46,257 nt of DNA, taken from the IMG/VR virus record IMGVR_UViG_3300020180_000818, positions 1 to 46,257 of that record; one strand, given 5' to 3'. Shown here in pieces: positions 834-46,018 of this stretch. Made by a program: the position numbers and the translations under genes. The notes under the pieces are model-generated. The model was not told where the DNA came from and ran no database searches. It saw only the letters and a list, made by a program, of their open reading frames with translations. The stretch's first letter is position 1. Each line of letters starts with the position of its first letter. This stretch comes from a virus.

Positions 834-1911
834 GATCGCTTGAATCGATGAGCTTCTGCTTTACTTCTGCCGCAGGGATTCCTTTGGAAAGAAGTAGGGC
901 AGACATACCAGCTACGTGCGGGCACGCCATCGAAGTTCCCGAGTAAGAAGCGTATTTTCCATCGATCACGGTGGAATAGATTTTTACGCCAGGAGCTGCC
1001 ACTGCAACTTTCGTAGCGCCCCAGTTCGAGAAAGAAGCCTTAGCATCTTTATCGTCGGTAGCAGCCACCGCGATTACACCGTCATAGGTAGCGGGGTAAG
1101 TCGGGCGCTTATCGTTGTCATTGTATTCATTGCCAGCAGCGGCCACAAAAACAATACCGGCATCTTGAGCTTTCTTAATTGCATCCGCCATGGTTTGCGA
1201 GAAACCACCGCCGCCCCAAGAATTGCTCATTACGTTAGCCTTCATCAGGGTAGCGTAGTTGATCGCTTCAACAGCAGCCGCCAAGGTTCCAGATCCGTTC
1301 TTATCGAGGAACTTGATTGCCATGATCTTAGCTTTAGGAGCTACGCCAACTTTATCTCCAACAATGGTGCCAGAGCAGTGCGTGCCGTGAGAATGGTCGT
1401 CTTTAGGATCTCCATCTTTATTGGCAAAGTCATAACCGTAAACGTCATCGATAAAACCGTTGCCGTCATCGTCAAGATTATTACCGGCAATTTCCTTTTC
1501 GTTCATCCATACTTTTCCAGCAAGAGCGGGATGCGTGTAATCTACGCCAGTATCAATAACAGCGACAACCACCCCTTCACCCTTTACGCCGGTCTTCCAT
1601 GCTTCTGGAGCCTGGATCTTAGAGACACCCCAAGCCCCGGCTTCTGGTGCTGGTTCTTCTTCTGTCACAAGAGCGTGCAGAATATAGTTTGGCTCAGCAT
1701 AAAGAACCGCAGAGTTGATCTGGAGGTCTTTAAGGTTCCCCTCTACTACAAAAGTCTGCTCCGAACCCCGTACTTCTTTAATAAACTTAACATCCATGGA
1801 GCTGATCGCCATAAGGCTCACATTATCTCTCATGCGAACAATAACTTCTTCTGCGCTTGCAAAAACAGGAAACAATACCGAAAGCATCATCCCCAACACT
1901 AGCTTTTTCAT
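766..1911 (-). CDS. Secreted subtilisin-like serine protease (S8 family)
   Basis: A 381-residue protein with a clear Sec signal peptide (hydrophobic residues 4-18, ASA cleavage site at 18-20). Residues 22-80 look like an I9-type propeptide, followed by a complete S8 catalytic domain. Asp120 lies in AVIDTGVDY, His175 in HSHGTHCSGT, the oxyanion Asn261 in AAAGNEY and Ser327 in YSGTSMACPHVAGM. All catalytic residues are present, so it should be active once exported to the periplasm or outside. A GAAGGA ribosome site precedes the ATG. It overlaps the upstream membrane-protein gene by 4 bases, so the two are translationally coupled. An exported subtilase is unusual for a phage; a role in lysis, envelope remodelling or attack on host surface proteins is inference. 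Confidence 0.9.
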   Translation of the reverse strand: MKKLVLGMMLSVLFPVFASAEEVIVRMRDNVSLMAISSMDVKFIKEVRGSEQTFVVEGNLKDLQINSAVLYAEPNYILHALVTEEEPAPEAGAWGVSKIQAPEAWKTGVKGEGVVVAVIDTGVDYTHPALAGKVWMNEKEIAGNNLDDDGNGFIDDVYGYDFANKDGDPKDDHSHGTHCSGTIVGDKVGVAPKAKIMAIKFLDKNGSGTLAAAVEAINYATLMKANVMSNSWGGGGFSQTMADAIKKAQDAGIVFVAAAGNEYNDNDKRPTYPATYDGVIAVAATDDKDAKASFSNWGATKVAVAAPGVKIYSTVIDGKYASYSGTSMACPHVAGMSALLLSKGIPAAEVKQKLIDSSDLIDSLTGKSVSNGRVNALKAVN

Positions 1912-3401: not shown

Positions 3402-3476
3402 TGGTGGGGCTGGTCAGTATCGCGCTGACCTCTCATGTTCTTCAAACACGCGCTAATCTTTCTCAGCTACAACCCC
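3402..3476 (-). tRNA. tRNA-Phe (GAA)
   Basis: The acceptor stem GGGGTTG/CAGCCCC, A73 and an encoded CCA are present. The anticodon loop is TTGAAGA, giving GAA. The T stem GTCAG/CTGAC is good, but its loop reads CGCGATA instead of TTCRANN, which is abnormal. It is the last tRNA of the array that starts at attenuator 1 (4669-4817). Confidence 0.8.
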
Positions 3477-3482
3477 ATAAAA

Positions 3483-3558
3483 TGGTCAGGTAGGCGGGAG
3501 TCGAACCCGCAATCCCGTGCTTCCAAGGCACGTAAGTTACCAACAACTCTTCTACCTG
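3483..3558 (-). tRNA. tRNA-Pro (TGG), copy 1
   Basis: Seventy-six bases with acceptor CAGGTAG/CTACCTG, A73 and encoded CCA. The anticodon stem CGTGC/GCACG closes loop CTTGGAA, giving anticodon TGG. C1:G72 and A73 agree with proline identity. Position 37 is A rather than the usual G. It is six bases from the next tRNA. Confidence 0.85.
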
Positions 3559-3564
3559 TTAAAT

Positions 3565-3644
3565 TGGTCGGGGAGGTGGGACTTGAACCCACACAATGTC
3601 CTGGTTCCAAACCAGACGACCTATTCCAATTGGTCTACTCCCCG
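3565..3644 (-). tRNA. tRNA-Pro (TGG), copy 2
   Basis: Eighty bases with acceptor CGGGGAG/CTCCCCG, A73 and CCA. The anticodon arm TCTGG-TTTGGAA-CCAGG closely matches known proline tRNAs. The variable loop is seven bases. It is a second gene with the same anticodon but a clearly different sequence from copy 1. Confidence 0.88.
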
Positions 3645-3650
3645 TAAATA

Positions 3651-3741
3651 TGGAGGAAGACTGTGTACTCGAAACACACCCCACTTACGCGGAGCAGCAC
3701 GATTAGCAATCGGCTATAGCGCCCTGGCTATGTAGTCTTCC
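3651..3741 (-). tRNA. tRNA-Ser (GCT)
   Basis: Ninety-one bases with acceptor GGAAGAC/GTCTTCC, T73, CCA and a long variable arm (CTCCGC/GTGGGG), as in class II tRNAs. The loop TTGCTAA gives GCT. The anticodon stem has mismatches outside three good pairs, so folding is weaker than in the other genes. Confidence 0.75.
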
Positions 3742-3760: not shown

Positions 3761-4150
3761 TTATTTTCCCAAACTGGGAAAGTGACTAAAGAGTGTCGGC
3801 TCGCGAAAATACTTGGCGTATTCAAGCGAGTCGTCCAGGTGAAGATGAATGCCTACTTCTTTGCAGTATTCGGCTTTCGTCTTATCCCAGATTCTTGGTG
3901 AAAAGCATGGGCGACCTTCTTCAAGGTGTGTTTTCTCGGTGCCCATAAGGATGTGATGGTCGGTAATAGAGAACAAGTGCGAGTATTCGATTCCATAATC
4001 GGCCAGCTCTTTACGGGCGTGGTCTAATGCGGAACCAGTGATGACATGAACCTCGTGACCAGCATCCAATAGAGTGCGACTAAACACAGCAAACATTTCA
4101 GGTTTGCGGCTAATCACTCCATGGATATCTAATCCGATTTTAAGTTTCAT
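3761..4150 (-). CDS. HAD-superfamily phosphatase
   Basis: A 129-residue HAD protein beginning MKLKIGLDIHGV. Motif I is DIHGV, with His in place of the usual second Asp. Motif II is VITGS, a motif-III lysine lies near KTKAEYC, and motif IV is the acidic pair in HLHLDDS. The probable activity is hydrolysis of a small phosphate ester such as a nucleotide; the His substitution makes the substrate unclear. The -10 box ends seven bases before this ATG, so the mRNA is probably leaderless. An ATG two codons upstream would lie directly against the -10 box. It sits within the tRNA array. Confidence 0.75.
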   Translation of the reverse strand: MKLKIGLDIHGVISRKPEMFAVFSRTLLDAGHEVHVITGSALDHARKELADYGIEYSHLFSITDHHILMGTEKTHLEEGRPCFSPRIWDKTKAEYCKEVGIHLHLDDSLEYAKYFREPTLFSHFPSLGK

Positions 4151-4174: not shown

Positions 4175-4265
4175 TGGAGGAGAGTTATGGTGTCGATCCA
4201 TCATGCAGTTCCCCACATGTATGACAGTTTTCAAGACTGTGTGCTAGGCCGCTAGCAAACTCTCC
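4175..4265 (-). tRNA. tRNA-Ser (TGA)
   Basis: Ninety-one bases with acceptor GGAGAGT/ACTCTCC, T73, CCA and a long variable arm. The anticodon stem ACAGT/ACTGT is perfect around loop CTTGAAA, giving TGA. Confidence 0.9.
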
Positions 4266-4504: not shown

Positions 4505-4580
4505 TGGTGGACACATAGGGAGTTGCACCCTACACACAGTCCTTGCAAAGGATCATCGCCACTACGGAACATGTGTGCCC
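4505..4580 (-). tRNA. tRNA-Ala (TGC)
   Basis: Acceptor GGGCACA/TGTGTCC contains the G3:U70 pair, the alanine identity element. A73 and CCA are present. The anticodon loop TTTGCAA gives TGC. Confidence 0.92.
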
Positions 4581-4586
4581 ATAAAC

Positions 4587-4661
4587 TGGAGCCTCCGTCG
4601 GGTAAACACCCGCTACCTCTGATTGGAAGTCAGACGTGTATCTGTAAACACCCCCTGAGGC
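4587..4661 (-). tRNA. tRNA-Gly (TCC)
   Basis: Acceptor GCCTCAG/CGGAGGC with one mismatch, T73 as expected for glycine, and CCA. The anticodon arm TCTGA-CTTCCAA-TCAGA gives TCC. It is the first tRNA after terminator 1, only eight bases beyond the U-tract. Confidence 0.9.
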
Positions 4662-4668
4662 TTTCCCC

Positions 4669-4703
4669 AAAAACAAAAACCCCCAGCTTTTGTGAGCTAG
4701 GGG
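4669..4703 (-). terminator. Intrinsic terminator of attenuator 1
   Basis: Minus-strand CCCCTAGC-TCACAAAA-GCTGGGGG followed by TTTTTGTTTTT. It lies between the leader ORF (4740-4817) and tRNA-Gly. Its 5' arm (CACCCCT, 4705-4699) can instead pair with the end of the leader ORF. Confidence 0.9.
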
Positions 4704-4739
4704 TGATTCGTTCTAAGGTTTTAAATCTCTTGAACGTCG

Positions 4740-4817
4740 TTACACCCCTGCGTACACGGCGGCACCTGCTCCGAAGGAGCCTGGGCTAACCGATACTGAG
4801 GGGCTAAATACGTTCAT
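4740..4817 (-). CDS. Attenuator 1 leader peptide, 25 residues
   Basis: The ATG lies six bases after the TATAAT box, exactly at the expected transcription start, so it is leaderless. Of residues 2-25, five are Ser (5, 7, 9, 11, 14), four Gly (13, 16, 18, 24), four Ala (17, 19, 20, 23), two Pro (6, 12) and two Phe (4, 15). These five amino acids are exactly those of the downstream tRNAs (Gly, Ala, Ser, Ser, Pro, Pro, Phe). The other seven are five Val, one Asn and one Tyr. The TAA at 4742-4740 follows directly on segment 2 of the attenuator. Its role as a sensor is inference from composition and structure. Confidence 0.7.
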   Translation of the reverse strand: MNVFSPSVSVSPGSFGAGAAVYAGV

Positions 4818-4822
4818 ATTTC

Positions 4823-4839
4823 TATTATACACATTTGTC
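4823..4839 (-). promoter_or_regulatory. Promoter of tRNA array 1
   Basis: Minus-strand GACAAATGTGTATAATA, a good match to the phage motif ACAAAnGnGTATAATA. No -35 hexamer is seen at the normal distance. Confidence 0.8.
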
Positions 4840-4883
4840 ATAGACTGGAAACATTTGTTTTTGTTTTTCTTCTACGGAAGTGG

Positions 4884-4951
4884 TGGCACCACCACTCAGG
4901 ATCGCACTGAGCCACACGGATTTGGAGTTCGCGTTCCTCACTAGAGGTGGT
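4884..4951 (-). tRNA. tRNA-Trp (CCA), lacking a normal D arm
   Basis: Only 68 bases. Acceptor ACCACCT/TGGTGGT (one mismatch), G73 and CCA fit tryptophan (A1:U72, G73), and the loop CTCCAAA gives CCA. About ten bases replace the usual D arm, and the T loop is TGCGATC. It is either a truncated but functional tRNA or a decaying gene. Confidence 0.65.
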
Positions 4952-4958
4952 GATAAAA

Positions 4959-5044
4959 TGGTGTGCCGAGATGGATTTGAACCATCGAACCCTTGCGAGA
5001 ACAGCTTTACAGGCTGCGTGCTTTAACCGCTTGCATACCGACAC
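4959..5044 (-). tRNA. tRNA-Tyr (GTA)
   Basis: Eighty-six bases, class II with a long variable arm. Acceptor GTGTCGG/TCGGCAC, A73 and CCA are present. The arm GCAGC-CTGTAAA-GCTGT gives GTA. Confidence 0.92.
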
Positions 5045-5051
5045 ATAAAAA

Positions 5052-5129
5052 TGGCTGCGGGAGTGTGAATCGAACACACCTCTATATTGATTAACAGTCA
5101 ATCGCATTCACCCTGATTGCTATCCCGCA
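5052..5129 (-). tRNA. tRNA-Asn (GTT)
   Basis: Acceptor TGCGGGA/TCCCGCA, with T1:A72 and G73 as in bacterial Asn tRNAs, and CCA. The loop CTGTTAA gives GTT. Its 5' end directly follows the U-tract of terminator 2. Confidence 0.92.
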
Positions 5130-5162
5130 AAAACAAAAAACCCCGTGGTTTGCACCACGAGG
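5130..5162 (-). terminator. Intrinsic terminator of attenuator 2
   Basis: Minus-strand CCTCGTGG-TGCAAA-CCACGGGG, then TTTTTTGTTTTT, ending immediately at the 5' end of tRNA-Asn. Its 5' arm can alternatively pair with the end of the leader ORF. Confidence 0.9.
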
Positions 5163-5192
5163 TTCTTGAGAAAACTTGTTGAAGTGATCCCT

Positions 5193-5261
5193 TTACCTCA
5201 TGGCGCAGTTGTTCCAATTATAATTGGCATAAGCGTTAAGGTTTAGGGCTACAGACTTCAT
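5193..5261 (-). CDS. Attenuator 2 leader peptide, 22 residues
   Basis: A leaderless ATG lies six bases after the -10 box. Six of the residues are Asn (7, 9, 13, 15, 17, 18), two are Tyr (11, 14) and one is Trp (16). Residues 13-18 read NYNWNN, with every codon decoded by one of the three downstream tRNAs (Asn, Tyr, Trp). A ribosome paused in this run would cover segment 1 and leave segment 2 free, giving read-through into the tRNAs. The stop TAA is at 5195-5193, at the end of segment 2. Confidence 0.75.
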   Translation of the reverse strand: MKSVALNLNAYANYNWNNCAMR

Positions 5262-5266
5262 ATCCC

Positions 5267-5283
5267 TATTATACACATTTTGC
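5267..5283 (-). promoter_or_regulatory. Promoter of tRNA array 2
   Basis: Minus-strand GCAAAATGTGTATAATA, same motif and spacing as the promoter at 4823-4839. Confidence 0.8.
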
Positions 5284-5304
5284 TTAGGTTGAAAAGGGGC
5301 TGCA

Positions 5305-5377: not shown

Positions 5378-6388
5378 ATGCCCTATGACAATTGCGTCCT
5401 AATTGGACGCTTCCAGCCATTCCATAATGAGCACCTCCGCCTCATTAAAAAATCCCTCGAAGAAGCCAAAAAAGTAATAATCCTTCTCGGTAGCTATAAA
5501 GCTGCTCCAAACTTCCGTAACCCATGGACGTTTTCTGAGCGCGTCACCATGATCCAAGACGCCCTACCGGAAGATATTCTTAAGCGTGTTTCATTCGTTC
5601 CGATCCGTGATTACTTATATAACGACAACAGATGGATCGCCCAAGTTCAGCACAAAGTAAAAGAGGCCGTTAAGCACGGTGAGTCAGTCTGCTTAGGTGG
5701 AACCGAGAAAGACGCCACTAGCTACTATCTCAAGCTCTTTCCTCAGTGGAGAAAAGTAGGGACTTGTCTGATTAACCCCTTGAACGCCACAGACATTCGC
5801 CATTCTTATTTCTCGGGCGGAGATGAGTGGCGCAATATGGTTCCATCGCAAACTGCCACATATCTTGAAGAGTTCATGGCAGAAGATCGCTACAAAAACA
5901 TCGCAGAAGAACGAGAGTTCGTGAGGGGCTATAAAAAGCTCTGGGAAGCAGCCCCCTTCCCCCCAACTTTTGTAACCACCGATGTAATGGTTGAACAGGG
6001 CGGGCACGTTCTGGTTATTAAGCGAGGCCATAACCCAGGCAAGGGGCTCTTCGCTTTACCTGGCGGATTCATTAATCAAGGCGAATCTATTCAAGCATCA
6101 GCCCTTCGAGAGCTATATGAAGAAACTCATATCACTTTACCAAAGGGCCTTGTTGAAGACTCAATCAAAGAGTGTCGGGTATTCGATCACCCATTAAGAT
6201 CTCTTCGTGGACGAACGATCACTCACGCATATCACATCAAATTAGAAGATCGAGATCTTCCAAACGTAAAAGCGGGAGACGATGCTGCGGAAGCCCACTG
6301 GCTATCGCTATCAGATCTCGCAGAATACGAAGACCGATTCTTCGAGGATCATCTTCACATCATCAACCATTTCGTAAGCAAGGAATAA
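5378..6388 (+). CDS. Bifunctional NMN adenylyltransferase / Nudix hydrolase
   Basis: A 336-residue protein. Residues 10-19 read GRFQPFHNEH, the HxxH nucleotide-binding motif of NadM-type adenylyltransferases, with a second conserved block near residues 135-165. The C-terminal half holds a complete Nudix box from about Gly230 (GFINQGE, then RELYEE at 244-249). The first domain makes NAD+ from NMN and ATP; the Nudix domain in such fusions usually cleaves ADP-ribose or related products. A TTG at 5357 would add seven residues, but the ATG at 5378 starts the conserved fold. It is followed by the NMN-making enzyme, forming a two-step salvage route. Confidence 0.9.
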   Translation: MPYDNCVLIGRFQPFHNEHLRLIKKSLEEAKKVIILLGSYKAAPNFRNPWTFSERVTMIQDALPEDILKRVSFVPIRDYLYNDNRWIAQVQHKVKEAVKHGESVCLGGTEKDATSYYLKLFPQWRKVGTCLINPLNATDIRHSYFSGGDEWRNMVPSQTATYLEEFMAEDRYKNIAEEREFVRGYKKLWEAAPFPPTFVTTDVMVEQGGHVLVIKRGHNPGKGLFALPGGFINQGESIQASALRELYEETHITLPKGLVEDSIKECRVFDHPLRSLRGRTITHAYHIKLEDRDLPNVKAGDDAAEAHWLSLSDLAEYEDRFFEDHLHIINHFVSKE

Positions 6389-6438
6389 TACAGTCAATAA
6401 CCCCATCCCTAAAGGGCGGGGCTTGGAAGGAAAATTAG

Positions 6439-7827
6439 ATGAATATCGACTTTAACATTCTACTCGACACTGACTCTTATAAAGCATCTCACTGGCTACA
6501 ATACCCGCCAGGAACTACGGCGATGTACTCCTACCTTGAAAGCCGTGGTGGTAAATATAAAAAGACCACGTTCTTCGGGCTGCAATACATCATGAAGCGC
6601 TATCTCACCACCAAGATCACCGAAGAAATGGTGGAAGAAGCTAAGGCTTTTTGGGAAGCACATGGTGAGCCCTTCAATTACGAGGGCTGGATGTATATTG
6701 CCAAGAACCTTGCGGGCCGTATCCCTATGCGTATCCGCGCAGTGCCAGAAGGAACTGCCGTTACTGCTCGCAACGTGTTGATGGATTGTGAATCAACCGA
6801 CGAAAAATGCTTTTGGGTAGAGTCTTGGTTTGAGACCATGCTCATGCGTGTTTGGTATCCGACTACTGTAGCTACGTTATCTTTGCACTGCCGCGAGATC
6901 ATCATGGCTGCTTTAGAGAAAAGCTCGGACAATCCCGCAGCAGAACAGCCATTCAAGCACCACGACTTTGGTAGCCGTGGCGTGTCTTCTTTAGAGAGCG
7001 CAATGATTGGAGGAGCCGCTCACCTAGTTCACTCGATGGGTAGCGATACAGCTCCTGGCGTGTGGATGGCGAACAAGTTCTACGGATGCAAAGGTGGTAT
7101 GGCCGGTTACTCCATCCCTGCGGCTGAGCATTCGACGATTACTTCTTGGGGTAAGCGCCGCGAATCCGAAGCCTACCGCAACATGCTAAAACAGTATGGT
7201 GGCACCGGCAAGATCCTGGCAGTTGTTTCAGACTCCTACGATTACTTCAATGCAGTCGGAAATATCTGGGGCAAAGAGCTGATCACAGAGGTTCTCGATG
7301 CGAACTGCACTCTCGTGATCCGTCCAGACTCTGGAGATCCTGTAGAGATGATCATCAAGGGCCTACGGCTGCTTGAGCACTCTTTTGGAGCGACACTTAA
7401 TACCAAGGGCTACAAAATAATCAACCACAACGTGCGCCTTATCCAAGGTGACGGTATCGATATCGAAGTAATGGCAGATATTCTCAACGAAGTAATGTGG
7501 GCCGGTTACTCCGCGACCAACGTAGCGTTTGGTATGGGCGGAGGTCTCCTTCAAAAGGTTGATCGTGATACTCAGAAGTTCGCCTACAAGTGCTCGGAGA
7601 TCACCATCGATGGCGAGCACATCCCGGTGTTCAAAGATCCTGTTACCGATCCTGGAAAGAAATCCAAGGCCGGTCGCTTGATGCTGGTTCATGATGGAGT
7701 GACATTCACCACCATGCAGCAAGGGGATCTTGCTCCTGAGTTCGATCAGCTAAAAGTGGTGTACGAAGACGGTATTGTAGTGAAGGAGTACAACTTTGAT
7801 GAAGTCAGAGCGAACGCGGCTCTCTAA
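6439..7827 (+). CDS. nadV: Nicotinamide phosphoribosyltransferase (NAMPT)
   Basis: A 462-residue protein of normal NAMPT length. Conserved blocks are DTDSYKASHW at the N-terminus, FGSRGVSSLESAMIGGAAH, AAEHSTITSWG, VSDSYDYFN, the phosphate-binding VIRPDSGDP and IQGDGID. It converts nicotinamide and phosphoribosyl pyrophosphate to NMN, which the upstream gene turns into NAD+. GGAAGG precedes the ATG, and a short hairpin (6401-6421) lies between the two genes. Together they match the phage NAD+ reconstitution pathway 2 (NARP2) known to counter NAD+-depleting defences. Confidence 0.93.
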   Translation: MNIDFNILLDTDSYKASHWLQYPPGTTAMYSYLESRGGKYKKTTFFGLQYIMKRYLTTKITEEMVEEAKAFWEAHGEPFNYEGWMYIAKNLAGRIPMRIRAVPEGTAVTARNVLMDCESTDEKCFWVESWFETMLMRVWYPTTVATLSLHCREIIMAALEKSSDNPAAEQPFKHHDFGSRGVSSLESAMIGGAAHLVHSMGSDTAPGVWMANKFYGCKGGMAGYSIPAAEHSTITSWGKRRESEAYRNMLKQYGGTGKILAVVSDSYDYFNAVGNIWGKELITEVLDANCTLVIRPDSGDPVEMIIKGLRLLEHSFGATLNTKGYKIINHNVRLIQGDGIDIEVMADILNEVMWAGYSATNVAFGMGGGLLQKVDRDTQKFAYKCSEITIDGEHIPVFKDPVTDPGKKSKAGRLMLVHDGVTFTTMQQGDLAPEFDQLKVVYEDGIVVKEYNFDEVRANAAL

Positions 7828-45666: not shown

Positions 45667-45740
45667 TGGCTCCCTCGGCTGGACTCGCACCAGCGTCGCA
45701 CGGCTTCAAAGACCGGCATCCTGCTTTAGACGACAAGGGA
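45667..45740 (-). tRNA. tRNA-Gln (TTG)
   Basis: Acceptor TCCCTTG/CGAGGGA with T1:A72 and G73, as required for glutamine. Anticodon loop CTTTGAA gives TTG. The T loop is TGCGAGT and the D stem is three pairs. Confidence 0.88.
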
Positions 45741-45748
45741 ATATAAAA

Positions 45749-45834
45749 TGGTGCGGATAGAGGGAATCGAACCCCCACGCTTTTAAGGGCACTGCGTTCT
45801 AAGCGCAGCATGGCTACCGTTACATCATATCCGC
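45749..45834 (-). tRNA. tRNA-Leu (TAG)
   Basis: Eighty-six bases with a long variable region, acceptor GCGGATA/TATCCGC, A73 and CCA. The arm CTGCG-CTTAGAA-CGCAG gives TAG. Confidence 0.88.
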
Positions 45835-45835
45835 G

Positions 45836-45912
45836 TGGTATCCCGAGCGAGACTCGAACTCGCAAATTACAGATTTTAAGTCTGCTGCCTATACCAATTC
45901 GGCTACCGGGAT
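45836..45912 (-). tRNA. tRNA-Leu (TAA) with a short variable loop
   Basis: Acceptor ATCCCGG/TCGGGAT, A73, CCA and arm GCAGA-CTTAAAA-TCTGT give TAA, which reads UUA. The variable loop is only five bases, unlike normal bacterial leucine tRNAs, so charging with leucine is uncertain. Confidence 0.8.
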
Positions 45913-46018
45913 TCAAATTTTTGGGAGAGTCCGTTTTACAAAAAGGACAAAAGAATGTTTTTGCTCTCTACGAGAGCTGTAACTGGAGGGCTAGACGTAA
46001 GCTAAAAGCGTTGGTCAT
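45913..46018 (-). promoter_or_regulatory. Leader RNA of the Leu-Leu-Gln tRNA array
   Basis: It starts with a 16-codon leaderless ORF and ends at tRNA-Leu. A hairpin GCTCTC-GTA-GAGAGC (45977-45963) contains the amber stop. GAGAG (45968-45964) can instead pair with CTCTC (45929-45925), and GTCC/GGAC forms another stem. No intrinsic terminator with a U-tract is seen, so how it would attenuate is unclear. Confidence 0.5.
45968..46018 (-). CDS. Leader peptide 3 (Leu/Gln-rich, amber stop)
   Basis: The ATG lies six bases after the -10 box. The peptide is MTNAFSLRLALQLQLS, with five Leu (codons TTA, CTA, CTC, TTA, CTC) and two Gln (CAG), just upstream of two tRNA-Leu and tRNA-Gln. The stop is TAG, the codon of the phage suppressor tRNA. 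Beyond it the frame continues with RAKTFFCPFCKTD, so read-through would be long. Confidence 0.6.
   Translation of the reverse strand: MTNAFSLRLALQLQLS

Follow-up and report, generated by a model that had tools for sequence, protein, structure and literature searches.

Leader ORFs matched to the tRNA arrays that follow them suggest ribosome-mediated attenuation of tRNA genes in a family of large tailed phages

What governs a phage tRNA array that is preceded by a promoter, a short ORF rich in the codons that its tRNAs read, and an intrinsic terminator? Such an array lies in a virus record of 46,257 bases (47% G+C; the whole of this stretch is referred to here as the window), a fragment of the genome of a large tailed phage with genes for a DnaE-type DNA polymerase, portal, terminase, major capsid protein, GroEL, NAMPT and NadM-Nudix. 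An initial annotation had described a single unit of promoter, leader and tRNAs. That unit is real, but the window holds three (W1, W2 and W3; Table 1). The -10 context AATGTGTATAAT is common to all three leaders, and the pattern TGTGTATAAT-N6-ATG has three matches in the window, each of them on the minus strand and at the head of a tRNA array; the reversed pattern, used as a control, has none.

Table 1. Features of the tRNA arrays in the window (W1–W3) and in its relatives (LA1, LA2, GA, GB, GC). Positions are those of the window.
Array	Feature	Positions	Strand	Remarks
W1	Promoter TTTTCA-16-TATAAT	5268..5295	-	-10 TATAAT 5273-5268; weak -35 TTTTCA 5295-5290
W1	Leader ORF, 22 codons, MKSVALNLNAYANYNWNNCAMR	5193..5261	-	predicted leaderless
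W1	Possible protector ACCTTA	5237..5242	-	may pair with ORF end absent a ribosome
W1	Antiterminator segment GCCATGAGGT, in ORF end	5195..5204	-	pairs with terminator 5' arm ACCTCGTGGT
W1	Intrinsic terminator	5136..5167	-	14 pairs + T-run
W1	tRNA-Asn(GTT)	5052..5129	-	
W1	tRNA-Tyr(GTA)	4959..5044	-	
W1	Degenerate tRNA, probably Trp(CCA)	4880..4951 (about)	-	from sequence; ARAGORN at 70% threshold only
W2	Promoter TTTCCA-16-TATAAT	4824..4851	-	
W2	Leader ORF, 25 codons, MNVFSPSVSVSPGSFGAGAAVYAGV (Ser5 Gly4 Ala4 Pro2 Phe2)	4740..4817	-	predicted leaderless
W2	Antiterminator AGGGGTG	4743..4749	-	pairs with terminator 5' arm CACCCCT
W2	Intrinsic terminator	4679..4704	-	
W2	Degenerate tRNA-Gly(TCC)	4588..4661	-	anticodon arm intact, T arm short; no ARAGORN or Rfam call
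W2	tRNA-Ala(TGC)	4505..4578	-	ARAGORN 85% threshold
W2	tRNA-Ser(TGA)	4175..4265	-	
W2	tRNA-Ser(GCT)	3651..3741	-	ARAGORN 85% threshold
W2	tRNA-Pro(TGG), first	3565..3644	-	
W2	tRNA-Pro(TGG), second	3483..3558	-	
W2	tRNA-Phe(GAA)	3402..3476	-	
W3	Leader ORF, 16 codons + TAG, MTNAFSLRLALQLQLS (Leu5 Gln2)	45968..46018	-	-10 at 46030-46025; predicted leaderless
W3	tRNA-Leu(TAA)	45836..45912	-	
W3	tRNA-Leu(TAG)	45749..45834	-	
W3	tRNA-Gln(TTG)	45667..45740	-	
LA1 (L001/L172)	Leader MNIMNTAKNNAKYNGAGWVSGQVFV			tRNAs Asn, Tyr, Lys, Trp, Gly, Ala
LA2 (L001/L172)	Leader MKRFSSPSSFSPSSTPNGSGFSMS			antiterminator GGGTCAGGGTTTT; tRNAs Ser, then Pro (contig end cuts array)
GA (G001)	Leader MNKNYFAYNFKNNATNWVARGVKSFL			antiterminator GCGGGGT; tRNAs Asn, Lys, Lys, Tyr, Ala, Phe, Trp
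GB (G001)	Leader MSKFITNTITGTGTDGDTNLPGVIV			antiterminator CCTGGGGT; tRNAs Asp, Gly, Gly, Thr, Thr, Thr
GC (G001)	Leader MNTMRRSSVVMISRSMIIESTGVCA			antiterminator CGGGGGT; tRNAs Arg, Met, Ile, Val

The W1 leader contains six Asn, two Tyr and one Trp, with the run NYNWNN at codons 13-18, just as annotated. With called tRNAs only, its match to the array has a binomial p of 1.7e-4, and 645 other short ORFs include none that fits the Asn/Tyr/Trp set equally well. Its ATG, at 5261, lies exactly 6 nt past the -10 element, which would place the transcription start at the A of the ATG; on promoter spacing only, leaderless initiation is likewise suggested for several of the leaders. The annotated order of promoter, leader, terminator and tRNAs stands for tRNA-Asn and tRNA-Tyr, which are both called, but the third tRNA is degenerate and called by neither ARAGORN nor Rfam. 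At the 70% ARAGORN threshold it appears as a tRNA with a shifted anticodon; by eye the loop CUCCAAA reads CCA, like that of the called tRNA-Trp of the relative G001.

Arrays of this type are, we think very probably, ribosome-mediated transcription attenuators that together form a self-correcting tRNA homeostat, in which the sensed molecule is also the product. Each array would be transcribed from its own sigma-70-like promoter through the leader ORF and the intrinsic terminator, the leader serving as a test strip that carries codons for the tRNAs of the downstream array. A ribosome reaching the stop codon would cover the segment at the end of the ORF; were any tRNA of the array scarce, the ribosome would halt earlier, on the sensor codons, and the exposed ORF end would pair with the 5' arm of the terminator, allowing RNA polymerase to read through into the tRNAs. 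The result would be an OR gate with negative feedback, shortage of any member releasing the whole set. Translation of the leader, stalling and readthrough are steps that we infer. The physiological trigger is likely to be dilution of rare tRNAs by phage mRNA or cleavage of tRNAs by host defence; destruction of host tRNAs by defence nucleases is discussed in PMC10264068.

For the initial annotation, related phages in which neither a leader ORF nor a terminator is conserved would refute attenuation. Searches of viral contigs with the capsid and NadM proteins found relatives, two of them with tRNA arrays: G001 (IMGVR_UViG_3300049215_000686), whose capsid protein is 76% identical to that of the window phage, and L001 (contig IMGVR_UViG_3300009788_003357; capsid 74% identical). 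In L001/L172 NadM is 54% identical, and nadM and array diverge as they do in the window, where the NAD salvage pair NadM-Nudix and NAMPT (5378-7827, plus strand) is divergent from W1. The two relatives add five arrays, bringing the total to eight, and the five leaders are each matched to their own set and accompanied by terminators and co-varying antiterminators; the comparison thus does not refute the reading. The 5' leader of LA1 is longer and includes a purine-rich stretch. A weak tRNA-like match (34 bits) lies outside the arrays at G001:122546-122644 (L169 around 1047-1145, plus strand).

Elsewhere among the relatives, no tRNAs were recognised in G010 or G011, and the single tRNA of G002 lacks a leader. 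Among cultured phages the nearest relative is Myxococcus phage Mx1 (capsid 27% and polymerase 32% identical), which carries many tRNAs and no such leader; its sole candidate was rejected, being the end of a gene. The shared promoter AATGTGTATAATN6ATG, used as a query against viral contigs, gave matches that are mostly due to chance. The phage-encoded GroEL (44044-42332, minus strand; phrog_5725), used as bait, found no close relative among viral contigs, and a capsid search of bacterial and archaeal genomes gave no match.

To quantify the correspondence between leaders and tRNAs, a score was computed for how far each leader is enriched in the amino acids that its downstream tRNAs carry. All eight are enriched, with p values for single leaders ranging from 2e-3 to 6e-8. 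When leaders were permuted among arrays, the true assignment alone, of 40,320, attained the observed total score, and the outcome is the same with ARAGORN-called tRNAs alone (85% threshold). Under strict wobble rules every one of the 35 called tRNAs has a readable codon in its own leader, compared to a permutation mean of 17.4; this coverage is equalled in 2 of the 40,320 permutations, the true one included. The match extends to isoacceptors: the Thr anticodons CGT, TGT and GGT correspond to ACG, ACA and ACC/ACT, the Leu anticodons TAA and TAG to TTA and CTA, and the Lys anticodon CTT to AAG. Each leader is nonetheless partly unaccounted for by the tRNAs of its array, as are the five Val of the W2 leader.

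The annotation had named scarcity of charged tRNAs as the signal. The same attenuator could respond to amino-acid starvation, that is, to low charging, as it does in biosynthetic operons, and slow reading of the codons from any cause would trip the switch (the mechanism is treated in PMC1183508). Yet the genes being switched are tRNAs, and making tRNA cannot cure amino-acid starvation; the isoacceptor-level match for Thr, Leu and Lys, moreover, suits the sensing of tRNA species. Starvation is for these reasons an unlikely signal: scarcity is better read mainly as shortage of the tRNAs themselves, and a homeostat fits better than an amino-acid sensor. It is also improbable that the leaders are non-specific sensors of translation rate, responding to shut-off, antibiotics or defence, with codon identity hardly mattering. 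The fold would indeed be set by the position of the ribosome, whatever the cause of the stall, and possible leaders in jumbo phages (below) contain 19-20 different amino acids, but the leaders of the window family fit their own arrays and are not exchangeable.

Besides matched composition and codon coverage, ribosome-mediated attenuation calls for terminators and covarying ORF ends. Seven of the eight arrays (W1, W2, LA1, LA2, GA, GB and GC) have an intrinsic terminator, a G+C-rich hairpin with a T-run, 25-35 nt past the stop codon of the leader. In six of these seven, a stretch of 7-13 nt near the end of the ORF can base-pair with the terminator's 5' arm, whose 3' partner it nearly repeats; in W1 the pairing had been annotated as eight bases, and it is present with ten. 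The LA1 antiterminator is interrupted, and no better than those of synonymous recodings. G-rich arms form pairs readily, which makes nucleotide shuffling of ORF tails a poor null; permutation and synonymous recoding therefore served as null models. The fit between tail and arm covaries: of 5,040 pairings, the true one alone scores as high. Synonymous recoding of the seven leaders destroys much of this fit (Fisher p = 4.3e-5), so selection appears to act on the leader RNA, beyond the peptide alone. Constraint from the antiterminator on the end of the ORF accounts for the Gly-Val at or near the end of the W2, GA, GB and GC peptides, which has no match among the tRNAs.

Predicted folding agrees with such a switch, and in W1 it reproduces the three-state attenuator that the initial annotation had claimed. 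At equilibrium the full-length W1 RNA has a terminator probability of 0.91 when naked, about 0.03 when one of codons 6-14 is in the A site, and above 0.9 from A-site codon 15 to near the stop; just 3 of 200 synonymous recodings reproduce this behaviour. The ACCTTA segment is present where it had been annotated, and in W1, given the values for naked and stalled RNA, it may act as a 1:2 protector, which would promote termination when the leader is not translated; for the other leaders no protector emerged consistently. Only W1 shows a clear switch at equilibrium. The other terminators are stabler than their antiterminators, so the switch in those arrays must be kinetic, dependent on co-transcriptional folding, which is how classical attenuators are modelled (PMC1183508). 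Folding before the 3' arm of the terminator has been transcribed is the more fitting test. When the RNA is folded in this way with the A site no further than about codon 15, all seven arrays have the 5' arm paired to the ORF end; with the ribosome at the stop, the arm is unpaired in all seven. In most of the seven the antiterminator nests an inner helix, which in LA1, LA2 and GA makes use of the stop-codon region of the ORF. We predict, strongly in six of the seven, an antiterminator that cannot form together with the terminator and that a ribosome at the stop codon would conceal.

W3 departs from this plan. Its leader is matched to its tRNAs, but no canonical or otherwise recognisable terminator follows the ORF, and its control may be of a different mode. 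Within 46018-45913 (minus strand) the stop codon lies inside a hairpin, GCTCTC-GTA-GAGAGC, whose GAGAG could alternatively pair with CTCTC just 5' of tRNA-Leu.

That the leader ORFs encode functional small proteins (toxin- or antitoxin-like, for example) which merely happen to precede tRNAs is hard to credit. A comparable start (TATAAT-6-ATG) at 4150 does head an ordinary gene of 129 codons, predicted to be leaderless, that lies between the two tRNA-Ser genes of W2 (4150-3761, minus strand; phrog_13623, a family of unknown function). The leaders, by contrast, span 16-26 codons, their composition tracks the local array, and by eye the eight peptides have no similarity beyond tRNA-matched residues and the RNA-constrained end.

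Other genes of the window also touch on translation. A phage-encoded tmRNA (10433-10024, minus strand; Rfam 132 bits) has an unusual tag, DNSNVVRPAFGARAVSMAA, quite unlike the tags of the tmRNAs in relatives L001, L131 and L132. Between W3 and a tRNA with a CTA anticodon (44802-44724, minus strand; of amber suppressor type, labelled Pyl by ARAGORN) sits a gene for a small PTH2-like protein (45081-44815, minus strand), which matches the hydrolase family phrog_3668 at E 7.6e-8 and Pfam PTH2 only at E 0.13; in Mx1 an annotated peptidyl-tRNA hydrolase is also found amid the tRNAs. Recoding of TAG, suggested by the CTA tRNA, is ruled out, since TAG terminates 12 of the 42 genes of the window; TAG is also the stop codon of the W3 leader, upstream of this tRNA. 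The tmRNA and the PTH2-like protein would fit a phage life that includes stalled ribosomes.

As a control, a blind scan for a short ORF, terminator and tRNA in succession covered other phages with about 730 tRNAs in all (386 + 213 + 130, the loci being partly redundant), with thresholds of at least 2.5 for the composition z and 12 or more for complementarity. No unrelated ORF passed both, and complementarity of 18 or more occurred in two jumbo phages only. The scanned stretches of Listeria LPJP1, Streptomyces Faust, Xanthomonas XacN1 and Enterobacter EnC15, and of the jumbo phages G015, G016, G023, G027, G032, G034 and G035, contained no leaders. Short ORFs and terminator-like hairpins are common, and a single match has a p of only ~2e-3 to 6e-8, but the notion that short ORFs between promoter and first tRNA, and terminators of unrelated transcripts, coincide by chance is statistically refuted by the match in all eight arrays, attained once in 40,320 permutations, the covarying complementarity and the negative controls.

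Possible leaders in jumbo phages are longer, with 45-48 codons and 19-20 different amino acids, and head large tRNA arrays. In G008 (360 kb, 44 tRNAs), G009 and the fragment G038, an ORF of 46-48 codons at the head of the array has every one of the 20 amino acids; G008 and G009 have a terminator 27-31 nt downstream, G038 ending before that point, and the end of the G008 ORF holds a 7-bp complement to the 5' arm. Because the three ORFs are homologous, and because 1.6-1.9% of random 47-residue protein stretches contain all 20 amino acids, the pattern is suggestive only. A third lineage, G028, has a 46-codon ORF with 19 different amino acids and a 10-bp antiterminator, whose complementarity is matched by 9% of synonymous recodings. 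In this ORF the amino acids of the upstream tRNAs are under-represented (9 observed against an expected 17, p = 0.007) and those of the downstream tRNAs mildly over-represented. We regard these ORFs as possible weaker counterparts of the codon-matched leaders in unrelated jumbo phages, as leads rather than proof. Directly after the leader terminator, G008 and G009 also carry a structured-looking conserved RNA, AGTGCAAGTCGGAACGAG..CTGCAAAGCACTATAAAAAAAG (L173, about 13500-13300, and L178, about 4820-4650, both minus strand), for which the G007/G008 copy gave no convincing Rfam match.

The nearest known systems are the attenuators of amino-acid operons (trp, his, ilv, leu), which likewise combine a short ORF holding regulatory codons with a terminator and an exclusive antiterminator; there the position of the ribosome is the switch, and folding predicts the same ON and OFF states here. 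The differences are that the regulated genes here are the tRNAs themselves, in a phage, that one leader would sense several amino acids and isoacceptors, and that several leaders are predicted to be leaderless. In the trp layout the antiterminator strand lies past the stop codon, whereas here it lies within the end of the ORF. T-box riboswitches (RF00230) also attenuate transcription before translation-related genes in response to the state of tRNA; there, uncharged tRNA is bound by the RNA itself, without any need for a leader ORF. A T-box or other known regulatory RNA family was rejected: T-box matches are absent from the window at the gathering threshold and from the array loci up to an E of 1. 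Peptide leaders ahead of aminoacyl-tRNA synthetase genes, of which pheST is a further example, likewise control part of the translation machinery, there an enzyme and here tRNA genes. In bacilli a His leader precedes hisS/hisZ (PMC2965389), and that survey mentions prophages just as a source of terminators.

Phage tRNA arrays have been discussed as counter-defence (PMC10264068), their tRNAs being thought, as here, to replace host tRNAs depleted or cleaved in infection. The topic of that work is tRNA sequence rather than regulation; 'leader peptide', 'attenuation', 'promoter' and 'terminator' are absent from its main text. We found no literature report of leader-type control of phage tRNA genes, in a search that barely covered subscription journals. 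As far as we found, then, phage tRNA genes under a circuit of the amino-acid-operon type are apparently undescribed before, and this would be the first attenuator in which the ribosome senses the same tRNA that the circuit produces.

A codon-matched leader, a terminator and a complement at the end of the ORF make up a signature for genome searches, and the arrays may find use as compact multi-input sensors in synthetic biology. A wider picture can be drawn, tentatively and with more doubt than confidence, in which tRNA arrays of several unrelated phage lineages are feedback-controlled counter-defence, the leader codons inventorying the array, up to leaders with all 20 amino acids before some 44 tRNAs, such that any loss of tRNA, for example to host anticodon nucleases, releases replacements. 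Why and when phages express tRNAs is a question decades old; the homeostat offers a concrete and falsifiable circuit, one that would tie phage tRNAs to real-time shortage during infection.
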